Of a stretch of DNA of 39,851 bases, positions 3,341-39,851 are shown one piece after another; positions within the stretch are counted from its first letter, which is position 1, and every line of letters starts with the position of its first letter. Below the pieces are notes generated by a model. It ran no database searches. It was given only the letters and a program-made list of their open reading frames with translations, and was not told the origin of the DNA. A program made the translations under genes and the position numbers. This stretch comes from a virus. The stretch lies in the IMG/VR virus record IMGVR_UViG_3300032893_000147, positions 1-39,851 of that record, one strand, 5' to 3'.

Positions 3341-3508
3341 CTACTTCCCCCCTTGTGCCCGGCCCTCGGCCTGTCGGTACATGCGCTTGAAGTGCTGTAG
3401 TGGTCTGCGCTCGACAAGGCCGTAGTCATGTACTCCGTCGTAAACAAGGCGATACTCGCGGTTGTACCACTTCCGCCGAATCCACCACTTGCGCAACCAA
3501 TTGCTCAT
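3341..3508 (-). CDS. small basic aromatic-rich hypothetical protein
   Basis: A 55-aa protein beginning MSNWLRKWWIRRKWYNREY. It is very rich in Trp, Arg, Lys and Tyr, with predicted high pI. The ATG overlaps the upstream stop as ATGA, which decides the start over longer in-frame extensions. The Trp/Arg pattern might suit membrane-surface or nucleic-acid contact. No family recognised. Confidence 0.68.
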   Translation of the reverse strand: MSNWLRKWWIRRKWYNREYRLVYDGVHDYGLVERRPLQHFKRMYRQAEGRAQGGK

Positions 3509-9796: not shown

Positions 9797-10020
9797 CGGT
9801 GGATGTCCTCCCGGTAGTCGTGGCCCATCAGGTCGGGCTCGGGGGGCTCGGGGATTTCGTTCTCCACAACCACCTTCAATCCCGCCAGGATCTGCCGAGC
9901 GTTGTTCAGGTTGTGCTGGACGTTGCCGATGTGGTACACGCCGCTTTCAAGCTGGTCGTCCACCGTGGAAAGCAACCCCTCGGCGCGTTCCAGAGCCTTG
10001 ATGATGTCGGAGTGGTTCAC
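9793..10020 (-). CDS. helical hypothetical protein
   Basis: A 75-aa protein mainly composed of amphipathic helix (SDIIKALERAEGLLSTV, then VQHNLNNARQILAGL) with a Pro/Asp/His C-terminus. The GTG start overlaps the preceding TGA. It is the second gene of the recombination operon, just after the ribbon-helix-helix protein. No family recognised. Confidence 0.66.
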   Translation of the reverse strand: MNHSDIIKALERAEGLLSTVDDQLESGVYHIGNVQHNLNNARQILAGLKVVVENEIPEPPEPDLMGHDYREDIHR

Positions 10021-10196
10021 TTCACGATCCTTTCCAGAAGCGCGGTGTCACCGGCGCCCACCTTCGCCACCAGCCGACGAATCACCTCGGTCATGCTCAC
10101 CCGCTTCATCGCGCACGCGGCCTTGAATCCGCTGATGTCCGCGTTCAAGTTCAGGTTGATGACCTTCACCACGCCCTCTTTCATTTTCCCGCTCAC
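10017..10196 (-). CDS. ribbon-helix-helix DNA-binding protein (operon leader gene)
   Basis: A 59-aa protein. A beta strand (VVKVINLNLN) is followed by two helices (DISGFKAACAMKR and SMTEVIRRLVAKV), the MetJ/Arc/CopG fold. The GTG has an unusually strong ribosome site, AAAGGAGGTGA. An ATG at 10217 is possible but would lie at the transcription start. As the first gene behind the strong promoter at 10224-10251 it is a natural candidate for an autorepressor of the recombination operon (inference). Confidence 0.72.
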   Translation of the reverse strand: MSGKMKEGVVKVINLNLNADISGFKAACAMKRVSMTEVIRRLVAKVGAGDTALLERIVK

Positions 10197-10223
10197 CGTC
10201 TCACCTCCTTTGATCATACAGGA

Positions 10224-10251
10224 ATTATACCACGTCTACGAAATATTGCAA
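10224..10251 (-). promoter_or_regulatory. strong extended -10 promoter of the recombination operon
   Basis: Read on the minus strand: TTGCAA (10251-10246), 16-bp spacer, and TG-G-TATAAT with the consensus -10 at 10229-10224. The perfect TATAAT and the TG extension make it the best -10 in the window. The predicted start near 10217 is 20 bases before the GTG of the first gene. Confidence 0.88.
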
Positions 10252-10261
10252 GAACTATTTT

Positions 10262-10681
10262 TCACAATTCCACTTCCCTGTCGCCAGTGGCAGCATCCTT
10301 CCCCGACTTCTTTGCAGACCTCTTTTTCTGTGGTCGCTCAGTAGGACGAGGGAGAAAGGGACGGCAAGCATCGCAGAAGTCTCCTATGACAACCCTTCCA
10401 CACCCCGGCGCATATCCCGCCAGAAGGAAAAGTTTCTCGTTGTGCTTATAGACCTGGCCGTCGTGAAGCCAAAGGTTATCCTGATCCACCGGCTTGAAAA
10501 CAGGAACCTTCTCGCACCATTTCATCTTCGAAGGATCTCCCTCTATTCTGCAGGAGTGACAGAACACCCTTCCCTCTGTACGTTCAAACCGAGGGCTCTT
10601 GCAGTTTGGGCACAACTCTTTCCCTTCCAGATCAACGGGCTTCACCGGAAGAAGTTCGCCAGCACGATATACCGCGCTCAC
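10262..10681 (-). CDS. zinc-finger protein of the replication operon
   Basis: A 139-aa protein with CPNC (residues about 24-27) and CHSC (41-44) forming one ribbon, further Cys (WCEK, GCGR) and CDAC (103-106), then a Lys/Arg-rich, probably disordered tail (PQKKRSAKKSGK). The GTG overlaps the stop of the O-like initiator gene (GTGA), so it is co-translated with it. Position suggests a replication accessory. It does not resemble a known helicase loader. Confidence 0.68.
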   Translation of the reverse strand: MSAVYRAGELLPVKPVDLEGKELCPNCKSPRFERTEGRVFCHSCRIEGDPSKMKWCEKVPVFKPVDQDNLWLHDGQVYKHNEKLFLLAGYAPGCGRVVIGDFCDACRPFLPRPTERPQKKRSAKKSGKDAATGDREVEL

Positions 10682-11334
10682 TTTGCCCTCCTTGCAAAAG
10701 TTGTACTCCTCTCCTGGGACCTAGAAAGCCAAGAGGTTATGAATCGATTGAAGTCCTTTTTCTTCGGGTGTGCCGACAACCATGCTTTCATGTGAAAAAG
10801 TTCCTTCTTTACGTCCACTCCTTCGTAGCACTCCTCCCAAAACTCGATATCAGACTCCGTGAGCTTCCAGACTTTTTTCTCATAGTCGTAGACCGCTTTT
10901 CGAGGCTGGACCGGAGGATGCGAAGCATCGTCCGGGACAACCGGAGTACTCTCCGGTATCTCTTTGTCATTGGTACTTGTAAGAGTGTTCATTGTAGGGT
11001 CAACCCCGGTTGAGGGGGTCCCCTCAACGCCGGTAGAGGGGGGGGTCAACCCCGGTTGAGGGGGGTAGGGTATCTGGAGCTCGTAGGTGTTGGATGAACG
11101 ATCGGACTTCTGAACCTGTAGCCACCCTCTTTTCTCTAGCTCCCGGCACCAGTTCCTTATGGACTGTTCCGAACATCCCAAGGCTTTCGCCATCGTTGGC
11201 ACAGAAGGCCAGCACACATCGTCCTGTCCAGTGTAGGCAGCAAGAAGGGCGTAGAGAGCCTTGACCTCGATTTTCAGGGTAGGGTCACATAGAACCTTCT
11301 TAAAGACGATTCCATAGCCCTTCGGATACCTCAT
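10678..11334 (-). CDS. O-like replication initiator with winged-helix N-terminus
   Basis: A 218-aa protein. Residues about 5-95 form a winged-helix DNA-binding domain (SVPTMAKALGCSEQSIRNW is the helix-turn-helix, followed by LEKRGWLQV). A Pro/Ser/Thr-rich linker carries repeats of PSTGV, encoded by DNA iterons. The C-terminal region, with DVKKELFHMKAWLSAHP and RFITSWLSR, resembles the helicase-interaction part of phage replication proteins. Such proteins melt the origin and load the host helicase. The ATG at 11334 overlaps the upstream gene (ATGA). No helicase or polymerase gene is present, so host machinery must be recruited. Confidence 0.8.
   Translation of the reverse strand: MRYPKGYGIVFKKVLCDPTLKIEVKALYALLAAYTGQDDVCWPSVPTMAKALGCSEQSIRNWCRELEKRGWLQVQKSDRSSNTYELQIPYPPQPGLTPPSTGVEGTPSTGVDPTMNTLTSTNDKEIPESTPVVPDDASHPPVQPRKAVYDYEKKVWKLTESDIEFWEECYEGVDVKKELFHMKAWLSAHPKKKDFNRFITSWLSRSQERSTTFARRAK
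10997..11065. repeat. three 23-bp iterons inside the initiator gene (candidate origin)
   Basis: Three tandem 23-bp units start at 10997, 11020 and 11043. Units 1 and 3 are identical over 22 bases and contain GTCAACCCCGGTTGA with CAAC/GTTG arms. Unit 2 is a diverged relative. They lie in the low-complexity linker of the O-like gene, exactly the arrangement of the lambda origin within O. The origin function is inferred. Confidence 0.72.
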
Positions 11335-11516
11335 TCCTTGACCTCTGAGGCCCCGTGCAGTACTGCACCGCGTCTTTCTGCAGGGTTTCGGGCAATCATC
11401 TGGTAAACGGCATCCCGAACGAAATGGCCCATCTTGTGCCACCTCTTTTTCTGTGCCACGTAGTCGCAGACTTCCTTGTATTCTTCATCGGTCAGGGTGC
11501 ATCGGATCTCGGGCAT
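11331..11516 (-). CDS. ribbon-helix-helix-like small regulator (first gene of replication operon)
   Basis: A 61-aa protein: a strand (MPEIRCTLTDEEY) followed by helices EYKEVCDYVAQKK and MGHFVRDAVYQMIARNP, consistent with a ribbon-helix-helix fold. The ATG at 11516 has AGGAGG nine bases upstream. The stop overlaps the initiator ATG (ATGA). Directly upstream are a palindrome (11549-11574) and the leftward promoter. An autoregulatory role is inferred. Confidence 0.66.
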   Translation of the reverse strand: MPEIRCTLTDEEYKEVCDYVAQKKRWHKMGHFVRDAVYQMIARNPAERRGAVLHGASEVKE

Positions 11517-11548
11517 AAAAAAGAGCCTCCTGCCGGGTGGCGTGCCAA

Positions 11549-11574
11549 TTTGAGTCCTGGGAGTACAACTCAAA
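11549..11574. promoter_or_regulatory. operator-like inverted repeat TTTGAGT-N12-ACTCAAA
   Basis: A perfect 7-bp inverted repeat, TTTGAGT at 11549-11555 and ACTCAAA at 11568-11574, lies in the leader of the replication operon, 33 bases before the first ATG. A GC-rich palindrome (GCCGGGGCCGG on the minus strand) adjoins it. It may be an operator or an RNA hairpin. Confidence 0.45.
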
Positions 11575-11633
11575 CCGGCCCCGGCATGAGGCCCCTACTC
11601 CGCAGTTACGACGCCGCGCCAACGGCAAGAAGA

Positions 11634-11662
11634 AGGGTATCAGAAGAAACGTATCACGTCAA
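11634..11662 (-). promoter_or_regulatory. leftward promoter of the replication operon
   Basis: On the minus strand: TTGACG (11662-11657; 5/6), 17-bp spacer, then TG-A-TACCCT with the -10 at 11639-11634 (3/6 plus the TG extension). Its -35 lies in the left arm of the palindrome at 11658-11672. The next genes leftward are the ribbon-helix-helix protein and the initiator. Confidence 0.6.
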
Positions 11663-11672
11663 CCCCGTTGAC
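11658..11672. promoter_or_regulatory. palindrome GTCAAC-CCC-GTTGAC spanning both -35 boxes
   Basis: A perfect 6-bp inverted repeat with a CCC centre. The left arm overlaps the -35 of the leftward promoter and the right arm overlaps the -35 of the rightward one. The same sequence, with one extra G, is the core of iterons 1 and 3 at 10997-11065. A protein bound here would block both promoters. Confidence 0.7.
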
Positions 11673-11696
11673 ACCTGTGGATAACTTGTGTATAGA
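11668..11696 (+). promoter_or_regulatory. rightward sigma70 promoter in the control region
   Basis: Consensus TTGACA at 11668-11673, an ideal 17-bp spacer, and TATAGA (5/6) at 11691-11696. No credible plus-strand gene follows; the transcript would enter the late terminator region and run antisense to the lysis genes. A short regulatory or priming RNA is the likeliest product (inference). Confidence 0.72.
11676..11695. promoter_or_regulatory. DnaA boxes within the rightward promoter
   Basis: TGTGGATAA at 11676-11684 is the exact complement of the strong DnaA box TTATCCACA. TGTGTATAG at 11687-11695 matches the TTATNCACA consensus at 8 of 9 positions, in the same orientation with an 11-bp period. 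They lie in the spacer and -10 of the promoter. DnaA binding would affect transcription or assist origin opening. Confidence 0.65.
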
Positions 11697-11789
11697 TTGG
11701 ACATCCTGTAGCGCCCACCGAGGCGGGGCCAGGAGAGGGGCGGCGAATCCCGGGCAGGGAGATTGAGCCGCCCTTCGTCATTTCCGGGG
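11697..11789 (+). other. non-coding leader after the rightward promoter
   Basis: There is no start codon with a ribosome site here. GGGCGGC (11738-11744) can pair with GCCGCCC (11767-11773) over a 22-base loop, followed only by TT. The stretch could give a short structured RNA from the rightward promoter. Nothing else was recognised. Confidence 0.4.
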
Positions 11790-11833
11790 AAAAAGTGGCC
11801 GGTCGTTCAAAGGAGGCGAGGAACCGACCGGCC
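11790..11833 (-). terminator. terminator of the late/lysis transcript
   Basis: On the minus strand GGCCGGTCGGTTC (11833-11821) pairs with GAACGACCGGCC (11808-11797), with one bulged base and a 12-base loop. It is followed by AC and TTTTT (11794-11790). It lies about 60 bases after the last lysis gene and prevents late transcription from running into the control region. Confidence 0.82.
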
Positions 11834-11895
11834 GGAAAACGCCCACCGGCCCGGGTGAAGGCTGAACCCAATGCCAATGGACGTGGCGGCCGAAC

Positions 11896-12426
11896 TCACC
11901 AGACCTTGAGAGCCCGCCCGCCTTCGTATACTGCGACCACCCCAAGTCCCACCCCGAGGGTGATGCACCCGATTCGTAGCACACTGTTCTGTGCCTCCAG
12001 CGCCTTCGCGTCAACCTGGGCTTTTTGCAAGTCCTTTTTGATTTGGGTGGTAGAGTCGATAGAGAGCTTCAAATCCTGTTGCAATTGCGTCGACTTGCTT
12101 TCCAAGGTCGACTCCAGCGCTTGCGATATTGCCAAGGATGCCGTCAATGATGCGTTGTCCGCTTGCAATGTCCCGCTGCTGTTTTGCAATGACAGCATCG
12201 TCGCTTGCAAGGAGTCGATTTGACTTGTCAAGCTGTCCTGATAGGCTTTGAAGTTTGCCGGCAAGGTCGTGATTAGCGGCAACAGCGTCTGCCAGAGAGG
12301 TTCGGAGAGAGTCGGCGGAATCACTGGCGGATTTGAGGTCAGCGTTGAGCTTTGCCCCTGAACCGTGAGCGACCCACAGCACAATCCCACCGCACAGAAC
12401 AGCACCAGCAAGGAACGCCGCCGCAT
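11896..12426 (-). CDS. spanin-like protein with N-terminal signal and C-terminal membrane span
   Basis: A 176-aa protein. Residues 1-22 are a signal-like segment (RRRSLLVLFCAVGLCC) with adjacent Cys but no perfect lipobox. Next come a Pro-rich stretch (SNPPVIPPTLSEPLW), a long heptad-like helix (about 65-145), and a C-terminal span (ITLGVGLGVVAVY) with a short basic tail. This order resembles unimolecular spanins, which link outer and inner membranes to finish lysis. It overlaps the 12011-12445 gene over more than 400 bases in another frame. In 12061-12120 this frame has 15/20 G/C third positions by hand count, against 6/19 in the other. The ribosome site is weak. Confidence 0.66.
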   Translation of the reverse strand: MRRRSLLVLFCAVGLCCGSLTVQGQSSTLTSNPPVIPPTLSEPLWQTLLPLITTLPANFKAYQDSLTSQIDSLQATMLSLQNSSGTLQADNASLTASLAISQALESTLESKSTQLQQDLKLSIDSTTQIKKDLQKAQVDAKALEAQNSVLRIGCITLGVGLGVVAVYEGGRALKVW

Positions 12427-12445
12427 ACCCTATCCAGCCTTTCAT
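12011..12445 (-). CDS. i-spanin-like protein (inner-membrane anchored coiled coil)
   Basis: A 144-aa protein. A membrane span at residues about 5-27 (GYAAAFLAGAVLCGGIVLWV) is followed by a long alpha-helical periplasmic-type region with heptad repeats (LNADLKSASDSADSL, LAGKLQSLSGQLDKS). ATG at 12445 has GGAGG eight bases upstream and overlaps the preceding stop (ATGA), better than the GTG at 12454. The layout is that of lambda Rz. In the distal half, codon third positions are poor in G/C, suggesting that part is overprinted on the other frame. It could pair with the overlapping product as an Rz/Rz1-type complex. Confidence 0.64.
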   Translation of the reverse strand: MKGWIGYAAAFLAGAVLCGGIVLWVAHGSGAKLNADLKSASDSADSLRTSLADAVAANHDLAGKLQSLSGQLDKSNRLLASDDAVIAKQQRDIASGQRIIDGILGNIASAGVDLGKQVDAIATGFEALYRLYHPNQKGLAKSPG

Positions 12446-12534
12446 TTCATCCACCTCCCCATTACAAACCCGATGAGGTAGACCACCAGCATGATCAGAA
12501 GGGCCTCCCCTATGTCGATGGGAAGGCCGTTCAC
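12442..12534 (-). CDS. 30-aa single-span membrane microprotein in the lysis cassette
   Basis: The GTG overlaps the preceding TGA (GTGA) and the TGA overlaps the i-spanin ATG (ATGA), leaving no spare bases. After a short polar start, residues about 10-26 are a membrane span (ALLIMLVVYLIGFVMG) followed by RWMK. The size and position fit a tiny holin, antiholin or spanin accessory, but the role is unknown. Confidence 0.62.
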   Translation of the reverse strand: MNGLPIDIGEALLIMLVVYLIGFVMGRWMK

Positions 12535-17417: not shown

Positions 17418-20400
17418 TCACTGGTTCACCTTTCGTATTGCTCCCACCACATCACCTACGCCATGCTTGTATGGGATCTTCGTTACCATTGGGACCGCAA
17501 AGGCCATGAAGGACTCAAACGCATCCCCCCATCCTTTGTCACGCGCCTTCTGTGACTTCCCCGTGATCCCAGCCTTCACGCCCTGAATCATCTTCACGAT
17601 GTCCGTCTCAAACTGACCGATGAGGCTGGTGTTCGTTGACGCGGGCTGCCCCTTGGAAGTGATGGCCTGCTCCACGGGGTAGACTGCGCTGGACACCCCG
17701 AAACCGAGGCCCACGGTGTTGCTGGCAAGTTCTGTGATTGCGTCCGCCAGGATTCCCTTCTGCTTCTTCTCCTTCTTTCCCGTTACAGCACTCTGGATAG
17801 CCGCGCCACCTTCACGGATCCCGGTCCTTATCGCCGCGATTGTCAGAGCTTCCCCGAGAACTCCTACCACGAGGTACTTGGCAAACCTTTTCCCACCACC
17901 CGGCGTCTTCATGTCCACCGCCCGGCGTATACCAAGCTGCAGCAGTGCGTTCTTCTCCGACATGAGTGTCCCCGAGAGCATCCCGAGAACTCCCTGCCTC
18001 TTGATGTTCGCCGCGTACATCTCACGGGGGTTGGCGTGTGTTCGCTTCACAACGTACTCGGCGTATTTGATTGCCGCCTCGTCCTTCTGCTGCTCTGTGA
18101 GGTTCGGTCCGTCACGGTCGGACAAATCCGCAGCGCGCTGCAGGTCCAGAGACGGAGCTCCTTCCTTCATCTCGCGGCGTGCCTGGATGATGGCACTCCA
18201 CATCTCTCCCTTTGCCGCTCCCGCAAATCCAACCTTGATCGGAAGCATGGAAGCCTTCTGTACCTTCGTGAACGCCCCGCCGAGTCCCTTCGTTGAACCC
18301 TTTGCCGCAAGAACGTCCTGAATCTCCTGCATCGAACCGCCCTCCCATATCTGGCGGTACAGCGTGGAGTTTTCCAGAAGGTACTCGTGAGTGGATTTCG
18401 GGTGCATGGCGACATACGCCTGACCCTTCGTCCAATCACCGGCAGGGACGTATCCCGCCAGAGACCGTTCCACAAGAACTCGGTTGATTGCCGCTGTGCT
18501 CACATTGAACCCGAGGACCGCTCCGATTCCACGGTTTCGGATGTTCAACGTGAACCGCTCGATGGCGTTCAGGGGTTTCTTGGTCCCTGCCACCGCCTTC
18601 AATCCATCGGTCATCTGCTTGTAGAACTCTTCGCCAAACTTCCCCTTCACGGCCGCGGCAAAGTCAGGATTGAAAAGAAGTCGGGATGCGTTTCGAACCG
18701 GCTCCCCCAACCCCGTGAACATAGCTGAGGAGTCCACAACGTCCATGATGTCGTTACCGGCGTTTCTCACCCAAACGGGTTTCGTTGAACCCACCCGCTC
18801 TATCGTGTGGCTTTTGTCAACACCGGCGTGAGCGAAGGAGGATTGATCACGCTGCCGTAGAATCTCCTCCTCAAAGGGCAAACCGAGCTCCGACATCACG
18901 CGATAGATGGGGTAGTACGGGTCCAGCAATTTCAGATCGTAGCCGTACATCTTCCTGAACGTGGCCCCCATGTCCACGCCAGTTCTCTTTCCAAGGTCAA
19001 GGACTTGCTGGAGGAATCCGCGGTCCGTCTCGTCCATTGTGGCAAGGATGGCATTCAGGGATGACTCGGGGAGGTGGTAGATTTTCCCCTGCTCTTTATC
19101 CCCCTGCAGAGCAAACCCGTTCTTCAACGATTCCCACCCACTCTCCGTGGATTTCAGTCCGGCCATTGCGATGACGTGACCGCGCTCCATTTCCCCGCTG
19201 AACCCTGGAACGTCGATCTTTCTGCGTTCGTTCAGGAAGTCGGCCATGTTCAGCTTCTTGTCTTCAAGCCACTTGAAAATGGGGTCTGAGTACTCGTACT
19301 TCTTCGCGTTGTACACGTCATCCCCGGCGTCAACCATCTTCGCTCCTACTCGGTACAGAAGCGAATCCTCCCCGCCACCGAGGTAGGACAGCATAGACTC
19401 ATATCCCATGTTCGAAGCCTTGTACCACCGCGCCAGGTTCTTCACGAACCTCTTCGTGTCTTCAACGGCCCCGCCTTTCGTGAGTTGCGAAAACTGCGCT
19501 TTCGCCTCCTCGGGAGTCAACTGCGGGTGTGCCTTCTGGAAACGTTCAAGGTCTTTGGTGATCTTCGCCGGCCCGATCTCCTCAATGGCCCGTTGCACGG
19601 CGTCCTGTGATTGGATCGCCAAGTCACGGTCGTGGATGATCCGTGAATCTCGGCCCGCCGTGTAATAGGCCATGATCGCGTCATGGACGGTCTTCAAGTC
19701 TTCCGCAGGTAGATCGCGCAGAGGATATTTGGAAAGTTCGTTAAATCGGGCGAGGTCACGGGCCGGGAACACCGTGGGAGCCGTACCGTCCTCTATCGCC
19801 TGACGGATTCCCTGGAGACGGTCCAGAGTCTTTGCCGTTGGCTTCACCGCCGTGAAGTTCTCCCTTATGGCCTCCAGAGGTTCCTTGAACTCGTTGGGGA
19901 TCTTGGAAGTGTCAAGGTCTCGGATGTTGCGAATCATCCGGTTTGTCTCTGTCCGTTGACGTATCTGGTCACGCAGGGACTTCACCGCGGCAACCTTCTC
20001 CGCTCTGGCCGATTCCAGTTGCTCCGCAAACTCCTCCCGTCCCGCCTTCACCTTGGCCTGCAGGTCTTCAATCTGCGTGTTCAACTTCTCAATCTCGGGT
20101 CGCTTCTCGATGTAGTCCGCCGTTCCCTCGGCGCTGCGCGTGGCCTCGTCCAGAGCCTTGCCCTGCTCCTCGGTCATTCGCGGGGTTTCCACCTTGGGCT
20201 TCTCTGCGGTGGGAACCTCGGGGGGGCGTTCAACGATGTCGCCTACTGTAGCCGTGGCCAGCTTCTCCTTGGTCGAGATCTCGATAGGATGGGGCTCCGG
20301 TGCTTGCTGGGGGGCCTCCGGTGAGACTTTCTGGGATTCCTCGACCTTGGACACGTCTTTCTGGATTTCCCTTCCTACAGGGCCTTCCATGTCCAATCCG

Positions 20401-30248: not shown

Positions 30249-30591
30249 CTTCGATCTCCTGTCCTGTCTTCCAGTCCACGCGCTTGACCAGCTTCTTGAA
30301 GTCCAGAGTGAACGTACCCGTGGGAAGGGAATTGTTCACGCGGACCTTCACCTTCACACTCCCAAACGTGAGCTCCGTGGGAAGGCGATTCCTCATCTCC
30401 GAAGGAGAGACCGCCTTGGGTTTCCCACGTTGCGTGATATGCCGGGGGTTGTGGTAGTTCTCCTCGATGCGCCGGTAGAGCTCGTCGGCGAGGTGATGCT
30501 GAGTCGCTGAGGACATGAACACCTCCGTGGGCACTCTCCCCTTCTCGCACCACCGCACCACCGATGACCGGATGCTCTCGTTGATGGCCAT
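30229..30591 (-). CDS. hypothetical protein, capsid block
   Basis: A 120-aa protein. It begins MAINESIRSSVVRWCEKGRV. The centre contains DELYRRIEENYHNP, and the C-terminal part is beta-rich (LTFGSVKVKVRVNNSLPTG). ATG shares a base with the upstream TAA (TAATG). No family recognised; context suggests a head-assembly role. Confidence 0.68.
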   Translation of the reverse strand: MAINESIRSSVVRWCEKGRVPTEVFMSSATQHHLADELYRRIEENYHNPRHITQRGKPKAVSPSEMRNRLPTELTFGSVKVKVRVNNSLPTGTFTLDFKKLVKRVDWKTGQEIEVAEPGR

Positions 30592-38661: not shown

Positions 38662-38811
38662 TCACACCTCCGCTGCCTCAAGCAGCACTGATATTGTCCT
38701 GGACAAGCTCAACGGGTGCACCCCGTCGTAGCTGAGATACCGAAACCGATACCGCGCCGCCATCACCTCCCGATAGAGCCCCGCTGGTATGGCAACACGG
38801 CAATGTATCAT
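38662..38811 (-). CDS. 49-aa hypothetical protein (complete copy)
   Basis: ATG at 38811 lies just after the palindrome TTGTATACAA. GAGG about 11 bases upstream is a weak ribosome site, and an inner ATG after GGGAGGTG is an alternative. The peptide is Arg/Tyr-rich in the middle (RYRFRYLSYDG). Its 5' end is duplicated at 1-27. Unknown function. Confidence 0.58.
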   Translation of the reverse strand: MIHCRVAIPAGLYREVMAARYRFRYLSYDGVHPLSLSRTISVLLEAAEV

Positions 38812-38824
38812 TTTGTATACAACC

Positions 38825-39016
38825 TCAATTGATTCCTGCGGTCATGCAGAACACCCGATGTAGCACCGAGTCAACCAGCACAACCCCGATGAGGTACTTT
38901 GCCCTACGATGAGCGCAGTCAATCACGTTCTGCAGGTGACGTGTCATTTCACGTCCACAGACCGAAAAGTCCCGCCACGGCCCGATTTCAGCGTCCTGGG
39001 GCAGTTCCTCAAGCAT
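38825..39016 (-). CDS. small hypothetical protein downstream of terS (right copy)
   Basis: The counterpart of 41-232: 63 aa, with Cys replacing Ser in FSVCGRE and Ile replacing Val in NVIDCAH. Same ATG inside the terS 3' end, same ribosome site. The near-silent divergence shows that the reading frame is under selection, which supports it as a real gene. Confidence 0.76.
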   Translation of the reverse strand: MLEELPQDAEIGPWRDFSVCGREMTRHLQNVIDCAHRRAKYLIGVVLVDSVLHRVFCMTAGIN

Positions 39017-39800
39017 CCTTGGCCTCCTCGCGCATCTTCTTCCACCGCTCCGCGGCACTCTCCGCCTCCCCACCCTGCCCGGGGGCTCCCTTGAGCGTGT
39101 TCGTGGGCACCCAGCCGCCGTAGGGCTCGAAAACGATGACTTCCCGCTCGCTGGTGGCCTGCTCCCCCCACTTGTCGGGATGTATGCGCCCGGCAATCTG
39201 TAGGGTGCGCTGAATCCTCTTGTCTCTGGCGTTCACGAGATCCCTGGCCACGGGGATACGGACCTCTACCGACTTCACAAGCGCTAGAACCTTCTGCACG
39301 GGGTCAAGACCCTCCACGTCGGGAACCTGCTTGACCATCTCCAGAAGATCCTCGTGCTCCTTGTCCAGAGATACCGCCAGCTCAAGGCCGCGCTGAGTCT
39401 CTGCGTCTACAGCAAAGGCGTAAGCACGTTCGCACGTCTCCTTGAACTCCGGTCTCTCCCTCGCTGCAGCAAAAAGAGTCTTTCGGCTTGGAATGTCAAC
39501 GTATCGCCTTCCGGGATGGTCTTTCCCGGTCTCTTTTCGTTTCTTTTCCCCTTCCTCGATGATCTTTGCGAAGGACCAGCCTTGAGACTGCAGCTCGATG
39601 ACTCTCTCCATCCAGGGTTCGAAGACGGTTTCCACCTCCCCCATGCGACGGGACACATCGGCGACCTCCCGGGCCTCTTTCTCGCGGTCGGGAAGGCCGG
39701 TCGTCACATTTTTGTTGCGCTTTGTCAGCTTGGAATCCTTGGAACCTTGTCCGTGAGCCTTCTTCTGCGGTCCCTGCGGGGTTTTGGGAGTCTCAGCCAT
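39009..39800 (-). CDS. terS: terminase small subunit, long allele (263 aa)
   Basis: The same protein as 225-920 at both ends, but the centre differs. After the shared QSQGWSF it reads AKIIEEGEKKRKETGKDHP and PSRKTLFAAARERPEF. It then carries a 32-residue longer helical section (EDLLEMVKQVPDVEGLDPVQ and following) before rejoining at RIQRTLQIAGRIHPDKWGE. The N-terminal DNA-binding-type region is followed by this helical oligomerisation-like part. The extra length is in frame and helical, so the protein is likely functional. The small terminase forms rings that bind the packaging site. Confidence 0.83.
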   Translation of the reverse strand: MAETPKTPQGPQKKAHGQGSKDSKLTKRNKNVTTGLPDREKEAREVADVSRRMGEVETVFEPWMERVIELQSQGWSFAKIIEEGEKKRKETGKDHPGRRYVDIPSRKTLFAAARERPEFKETCERAYAFAVDAETQRGLELAVSLDKEHEDLLEMVKQVPDVEGLDPVQKVLALVKSVEVRIPVARDLVNARDKRIQRTLQIAGRIHPDKWGEQATSEREVIVFEPYGGWVPTNTLKGAPGQGGEAESAAERWKKMREEAKDA

Positions 39801-39851
39801 ACTAAGCTACCCTCCGGCAAGAAGTTACCACACTTTCGGGGTCTGTGCCAC

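Follow-up and report, generated by a model that had tools for sequence, protein, structure and literature searches.

Repeated palindromic sites within the O-like initiator gene of a phage record and a palindrome with the same arms at its putative early promoter

In phage lambda, it is cI and Cro, acting at OR-PR, and not O that control the O and P genes, and this operator is not known to include a DnaA box pair; the phage record described here differs in carrying such a pair beside a promoter palindrome. The lambda origin (ori-lambda) maps within O, where repeated palindromic sites are bound by initiator dimers (PMC5043065), and the present locus is alike in having repeated palindromic sites, with predicted binding, inside the initiator gene. 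Gp38 of SPP1 binds repeats in its own gene 38 (oriL) and, at another place in the genome, a second set (oriR) (PMC6316719), which again resembles the present arrangement of repeats inside the initiator's own gene and a further site elsewhere. However, the second set in SPP1 is an origin ~13 kb away with similar repeats, whereas here a single promoter palindrome of other spacing was found. In the F plasmid, RepE dimers bind an inverted repeat at the rep promoter, iterons are present as well, and DnaA binds close to the origin (PMC13028717). Iterons, an inverted repeat at the initiator promoter and DnaA boxes are likewise found here, but the F iterons are located outside the rep gene, whereas here they are in-gene, the two types of site differ in spacer, and autoregulation is putative.

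The window analysed was the whole 39,851-base IMG/VR phage record IMGVR_UViG_3300032893_000147 (positions 1 to 39,851), in which the minus strand carries every evident gene. Its structural genes, which encode a head-tail connector, a major head protein and a terminase, are similar to those of podovirus-like phages; no DNA similarity of the record to known phages was found, and an Rfam search of the record returned no match. The early region comprises an O-like initiator, an ERF annealing protein, for which a search for relatives found none, and a PD-(D/E)XK exonuclease. The features of this region are as follows.

10678-11334, minus strand: O-like replication initiator of 218 aa, with a winged HTH_36 N-domain, a disordered linker and a helical C-domain
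10960-10999: 40-bp stretch next to the iterons with a modest AT bias (60% AT, ~99th percentile within the record, no strong tract)
10997-11018, plus strand: perfect iteron copy GGGTCAACCCCGGTTGAGGGGG, encoding STGVD on the minus strand
11021-11042, plus strand: degenerate middle iteron CCCTCAACGCCGGTAGAGGGGG (77%), a decayed third copy between the perfect ones
11043-11064, plus strand: perfect iteron copy, an identical repeat in a different reading frame (QPGLT)
11331-11516, minus strand: candidate repressor of 61 aa, encoded by the first gene of the unit, with a sequence pattern like that of ribbon-helix-helix proteins
11634-11662, minus strand: putative early promoter (TTGACG at 11662-11657, 17-nt spacer, TGA-TACCCT), from sequence and from position in relatives G001 and G006
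11658-11672: palindrome GTCAACCCCGTTGAC, GTCAAC-CCC-GTTGAC (that is, GTCAACCCC-GTTGAC, of the form TCAAC-N3-GTTGA), 645 bp from the iterons
11668-11696, plus strand: rightward promoter-like sequence (TTGACA at 11668-11673, 17-nt spacer, TATAGA) with no gene downstream
11676-11684, minus strand: perfect DnaA box TTATCCACA, 3 bp beyond the palindrome
11687-11695, minus strand: second, tandem DnaA-like box CTATACACA with one mismatch
11794-11835, minus strand: hairpin followed by a T run (z = -2.46)

The initiator matched Pfam HTH_36 (E-value 2.8e-13) and several replication initiation and O-like families of PHROG (6.7e-16 to 3.5e-13). Its C-terminal helical domain is common to other initiators, with 37% identity to the initiator of a relative, G004, and single-protein searches of the viral and genome collections returned no close relatives. 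The single-sequence AlphaFold model was of low confidence (pLDDT 42) and too weak for a fold search. Within the gene, TCAACCCCGGTTGA (GTCAACCCCGGTTGA) is present in two exact copies (10999-11013 and 11045-11059). These are identical over 22 bp and are read in different frames, which argues that it is the DNA, and not the peptide, that is conserved. The iterons fall in the linker between the winged HTH_36 domain and the C-terminal helical domain, and the locus thus combines an HTH initiator of the O-like and replication initiation families with in-gene repeats of the interdomain linker, conserved at the DNA level, in the manner of lambda O. The initiator gene of G004 has palindromic iterons of its own (GTAGCGTTAC/GTAGCGCTAC/GTTACGCTCTGTAAC, L013:80-118) in the same place of the linker, on a contig without the promoter side. 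An O-like gene with in-gene iterons, as proposed in the first-pass annotation, is well supported by HTH_36, the O-like PHROGs, the out-of-frame iterons and the linker statistics given below. The repeats are convincing as origin iterons of the lambda/SPP1 type and very likely mark the replication origin, and the adjoining AT-rich stretch is a possible candidate for the unwinding element.

Viral sequences were scanned for TCAAC-N4-GTTGA occurring twice within 34 bp, this one palindrome class being covered, and 77 stretches (L071-L147) carried such a pair, when one or two would be expected by chance as estimated from the collection size. About 33 of the 77 pairs were inside initiator-like ORFs of 200-400 aa, where the site is usually read as ST-x-VE/D. 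Seven of the ten representatives scanned matched HTH_36, DUF1376 or Lin1244_N (one of them also Phg_2220_C), and three were without a Pfam match. TCAAC-N4-GTTGA pairs thus recur within predicted initiator-like genes of many unrelated phages. When loci were chosen by protein and not by DNA, 6 of 39 (the present record among them) had repeated palindromes in the linker, versus 7 of 693 control zones. As a rule, in-gene origins are identified individually in each phage, and one palindrome class shared by initiators with different N-terminal domains would serve as a simple locator for candidate origins in metagenomic phages. Matches of the pattern in genome contigs were mostly actinobacterial. Separately, six contigs (L076, L081, L118, L125, L140, L146) carry pairs of TCAACTATAGTTGA in a block of 52 bp that no ORF crosses, which may represent noncoding iterons or an operator array.

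The first-pass annotation had described one motif common to iterons 1 and 3 and to a palindrome about 650 bp away, and had proposed that a single protein, the initiator or the 61-aa protein, may bind both. Both sequences and coordinates were confirmed. When the entire record was searched with a tolerance of one substitution, insertion or deletion, the sole match besides the two iterons was at 11659-11671; many equally good matches elsewhere, which would count against the idea, were not present in the 39.85-kb record, and the idea stands unrefuted. An extra one-edit match arises in 3-7% of Markov-simulated genomes. The iteron block also has a 10-mer in common with position 18755 and an 11-mer with position 30470, both coding, and the sharing of a 10-mer alone is therefore unremarkable. 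Nor are palindromes with 6-bp arms enriched as a class, as the record contains 60 versus 58-93 in five simulations. TCAAC-N2..5-GTTGA is expected 0.075-0.375 times per whole record; for the gap of 379 bp at 11517-11895, the post hoc expectation is ~0.001-0.004. The unusual feature is that the same arms coincide with a location in this gap.

The palindrome had been described as covering both -35 boxes of a divergent promoter. The hexamers are present, but the -10 elements at both are weak (TATAGA; TACCCT with TGA ahead), and the promoter scan of the record listed neither pair at the palindrome. No credible plus-strand gene was found to the right of the palindrome, all evident genes being on the minus strand, so "divergent" is unsupported, and the rightward TTGACA-17-TATAGA is probably not functional. 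Synteny makes an early promoter on the minus strand plausible. The corresponding region is present in two relatives, G001 (L011) and G006 (L015), which at the equivalent position show TTGACA-17-TACAGT and TTGACA-17-TATAAT, respectively, as read by eye. Both of these early promoters directly follow a late-operon hairpin terminator, and their upstream sequence is unrelated: a different palindrome (AGAAAAATAATCGTATTTTTCT) is found upstream of the -35 in G006, and no TCAAC palindrome was found upstream of the G001 early promoter. No relative was found in which the initiator and the promoter region occur together. In the present record the hairpin at 11794-11835 likely terminates the late operon of structural and lysis genes, shortly before the early promoter. 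An overlapping ORF pair in different frames at 11896-12454 (minus strand), of 147 aa with an N-terminal hydrophobic segment and of 176 aa with a signal-like start, has an Rz/Rz1-like spanin arrangement, which is conserved in G006 (L015:11110-11710).

As in the RepE system, an inverted repeat coincides with the promoter, placed by sequence and synteny, that would drive the initiator operon; the arms of this repeat are the same as in the iterons, with a spacer of N3 versus N4. A DnaA box is likewise present in the control/origin region. The DnaA box pair, absent from the first-pass annotation, lies ~610 bp from the iterons, and a comparable pair is present in 1.7% of simulated genomes. The pattern of DnaA box and palindrome had six matches in viral contigs, corresponding to ~3 independent phages in unrelated contexts, and a conserved DnaA-palindrome module is therefore not claimed.

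Sequences, positions, reading frames and comparative statistics were observed directly, and protein binding, promoter activity and repression are inferred. To open the origin, the initiator would recognise the in-gene iterons as palindromes of the form TCAAC-N4-GTTGA. The promoter palindrome, which overlaps the -35 hexamer of the putative early promoter for the 61-aa protein and the initiator, would act in repressing this promoter or in linking it to host DnaA, as suggested by its overlap with the -35, its position after the terminator and the adjoining tandem DnaA boxes. With a little better than an even chance, the initiator serves an in-gene origin of the lambda/SPP1 type and the palindrome is a separate control site, the regulator of which would be the 61-aa protein, DnaA, or both. 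The likeness of the palindrome to the iterons would then be due mainly to the common arm TCAAC/GTTGA, which contains the -35 TTGAC. Against this reading stand the weak minus-strand -10 and the likeness at that location, which is above expectation (post hoc p ~0.001-0.004) and favours a functional link between both sites.

Such a link would exist if the O-like protein bound the iterons for replication and the palindrome for repression of its own operon, in the style of RepE, which we regard as the chief competing explanation but as rather unlikely. Ten bases (GTCAACCCCG) and the arms are common to both sites, the only one-edit match of the record lands in the control region, and the adjoining DnaA boxes recall plasmid origins. 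A loose parallel is seen in G001, where an 11-mer from the 33-bp repeats of an early gene recurs at 3351-3361, upstream of the promoter of that operon. This parallel is weakened by three other matches of at least 11 bases that recur elsewhere in the G001 genome, and two GTAACG sites upstream are too weak to use. The repeats themselves (L011:2724-3053, ~ten tandem copies of 33 bp) are located in the first early gene of G001 and encode ADYxAKLAxLY.

Against autoregulation by the initiator stands first the spacer. Across 25 TCAAC-class initiator loci the in-gene spacer was N4 in 56 of 57 sites, although the choice of these loci by their N4 pairs biases the count towards N4, and some of them are near relatives, so that the sites are not all independent; the third copies, as a fairer sample, were N4 but for one N3 site in L109. 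Secondly, no motif excess was found outside the initiator genes of these loci (2 sites versus 1.7 expected, both within other ORFs), and the iteron motif did not recur at the initiator promoter across the 25 loci, the sole site within 3 kb upstream being inside another ORF. A PWM survey of 40 initiator loci for the iteron outside the gene gave 19 matches at E ≤ 0.2 versus ~8 expected, but its order-2 null was judged too lenient for coding DNA, and the survey, which established no intergenic operator in the 40 loci, was counted neither for nor against. Furthermore, the upstream sequences of G001 and G006 differ, and further 10- and 11-mers of the iteron block recur in coding DNA. The claim that one protein acts on both iterons and palindrome, with the spacer off by 1 bp and no excess outside the 25 initiator genes, thus gained no independent support. 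If the initiator did also bind the palindrome, origin firing and early transcription would be under one switch, and plasmid-style initiator autoregulation would be present in a phage, using iteron arms with a one-base shorter spacer beside DnaA boxes.

Less probable still is a palindrome that does nothing by itself and is a chance inverted overlap of TTGAC-like -35 sequences in a promoter region. The arms consist for the most part of the -35 hexamer TTGAC, the number of palindromes with 6-bp arms is no higher than chance predicts, and the frequency of one-edit matches in simulated genomes is compatible with this; the symmetry, however, is perfect, the location is that of the early promoter, and two DnaA boxes adjoin.

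Short ribbon-helix-helix proteins commonly autoregulate, and the 61-aa protein is encoded by the first gene behind the palindrome, but that it should bind both sites, repressing its own operon and blocking the origin, is very improbable, as its ribbon-helix-helix identity is putative, the homologue search was empty, and such iterons occur in many kinds of phage and go with the initiator gene. The ribbon-helix-helix label given to it earlier agrees with the sequence pattern, but the protein had no family match in Pfam or PHROG, no phage homologue was found, and the single-sequence AlphaFold model (pLDDT 52), with two helices in compatible order, was too weak for a fold search. Altogether, the best reading of the locus is an origin of a mostly ordinary kind and, distinct from it, a control site at the promoter; a shared protein is possible, weakly supported and not favoured.

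A strong promoter-like sequence, TTGCAA-16-TATAAT with an extended -10, was found by the promoter scan at 10224-10251 (minus strand). It immediately precedes a ParG-like ribbon-helix-helix gene (10017-10217; Pfam ParG 5e-6), which is also present in G001, and appears from its sequence to be a candidate second early promoter, better than the one at the palindrome. The ends of the record (1-971 and 38785-39851) overlap imperfectly, with identities of 97.3% over 440 bp and 84.6% over 495 bp, which results in two versions of one gene (225-920 and 39009-39800). The overlap probably represents strain variants of a circular or terminally redundant genome that were joined during assembly.
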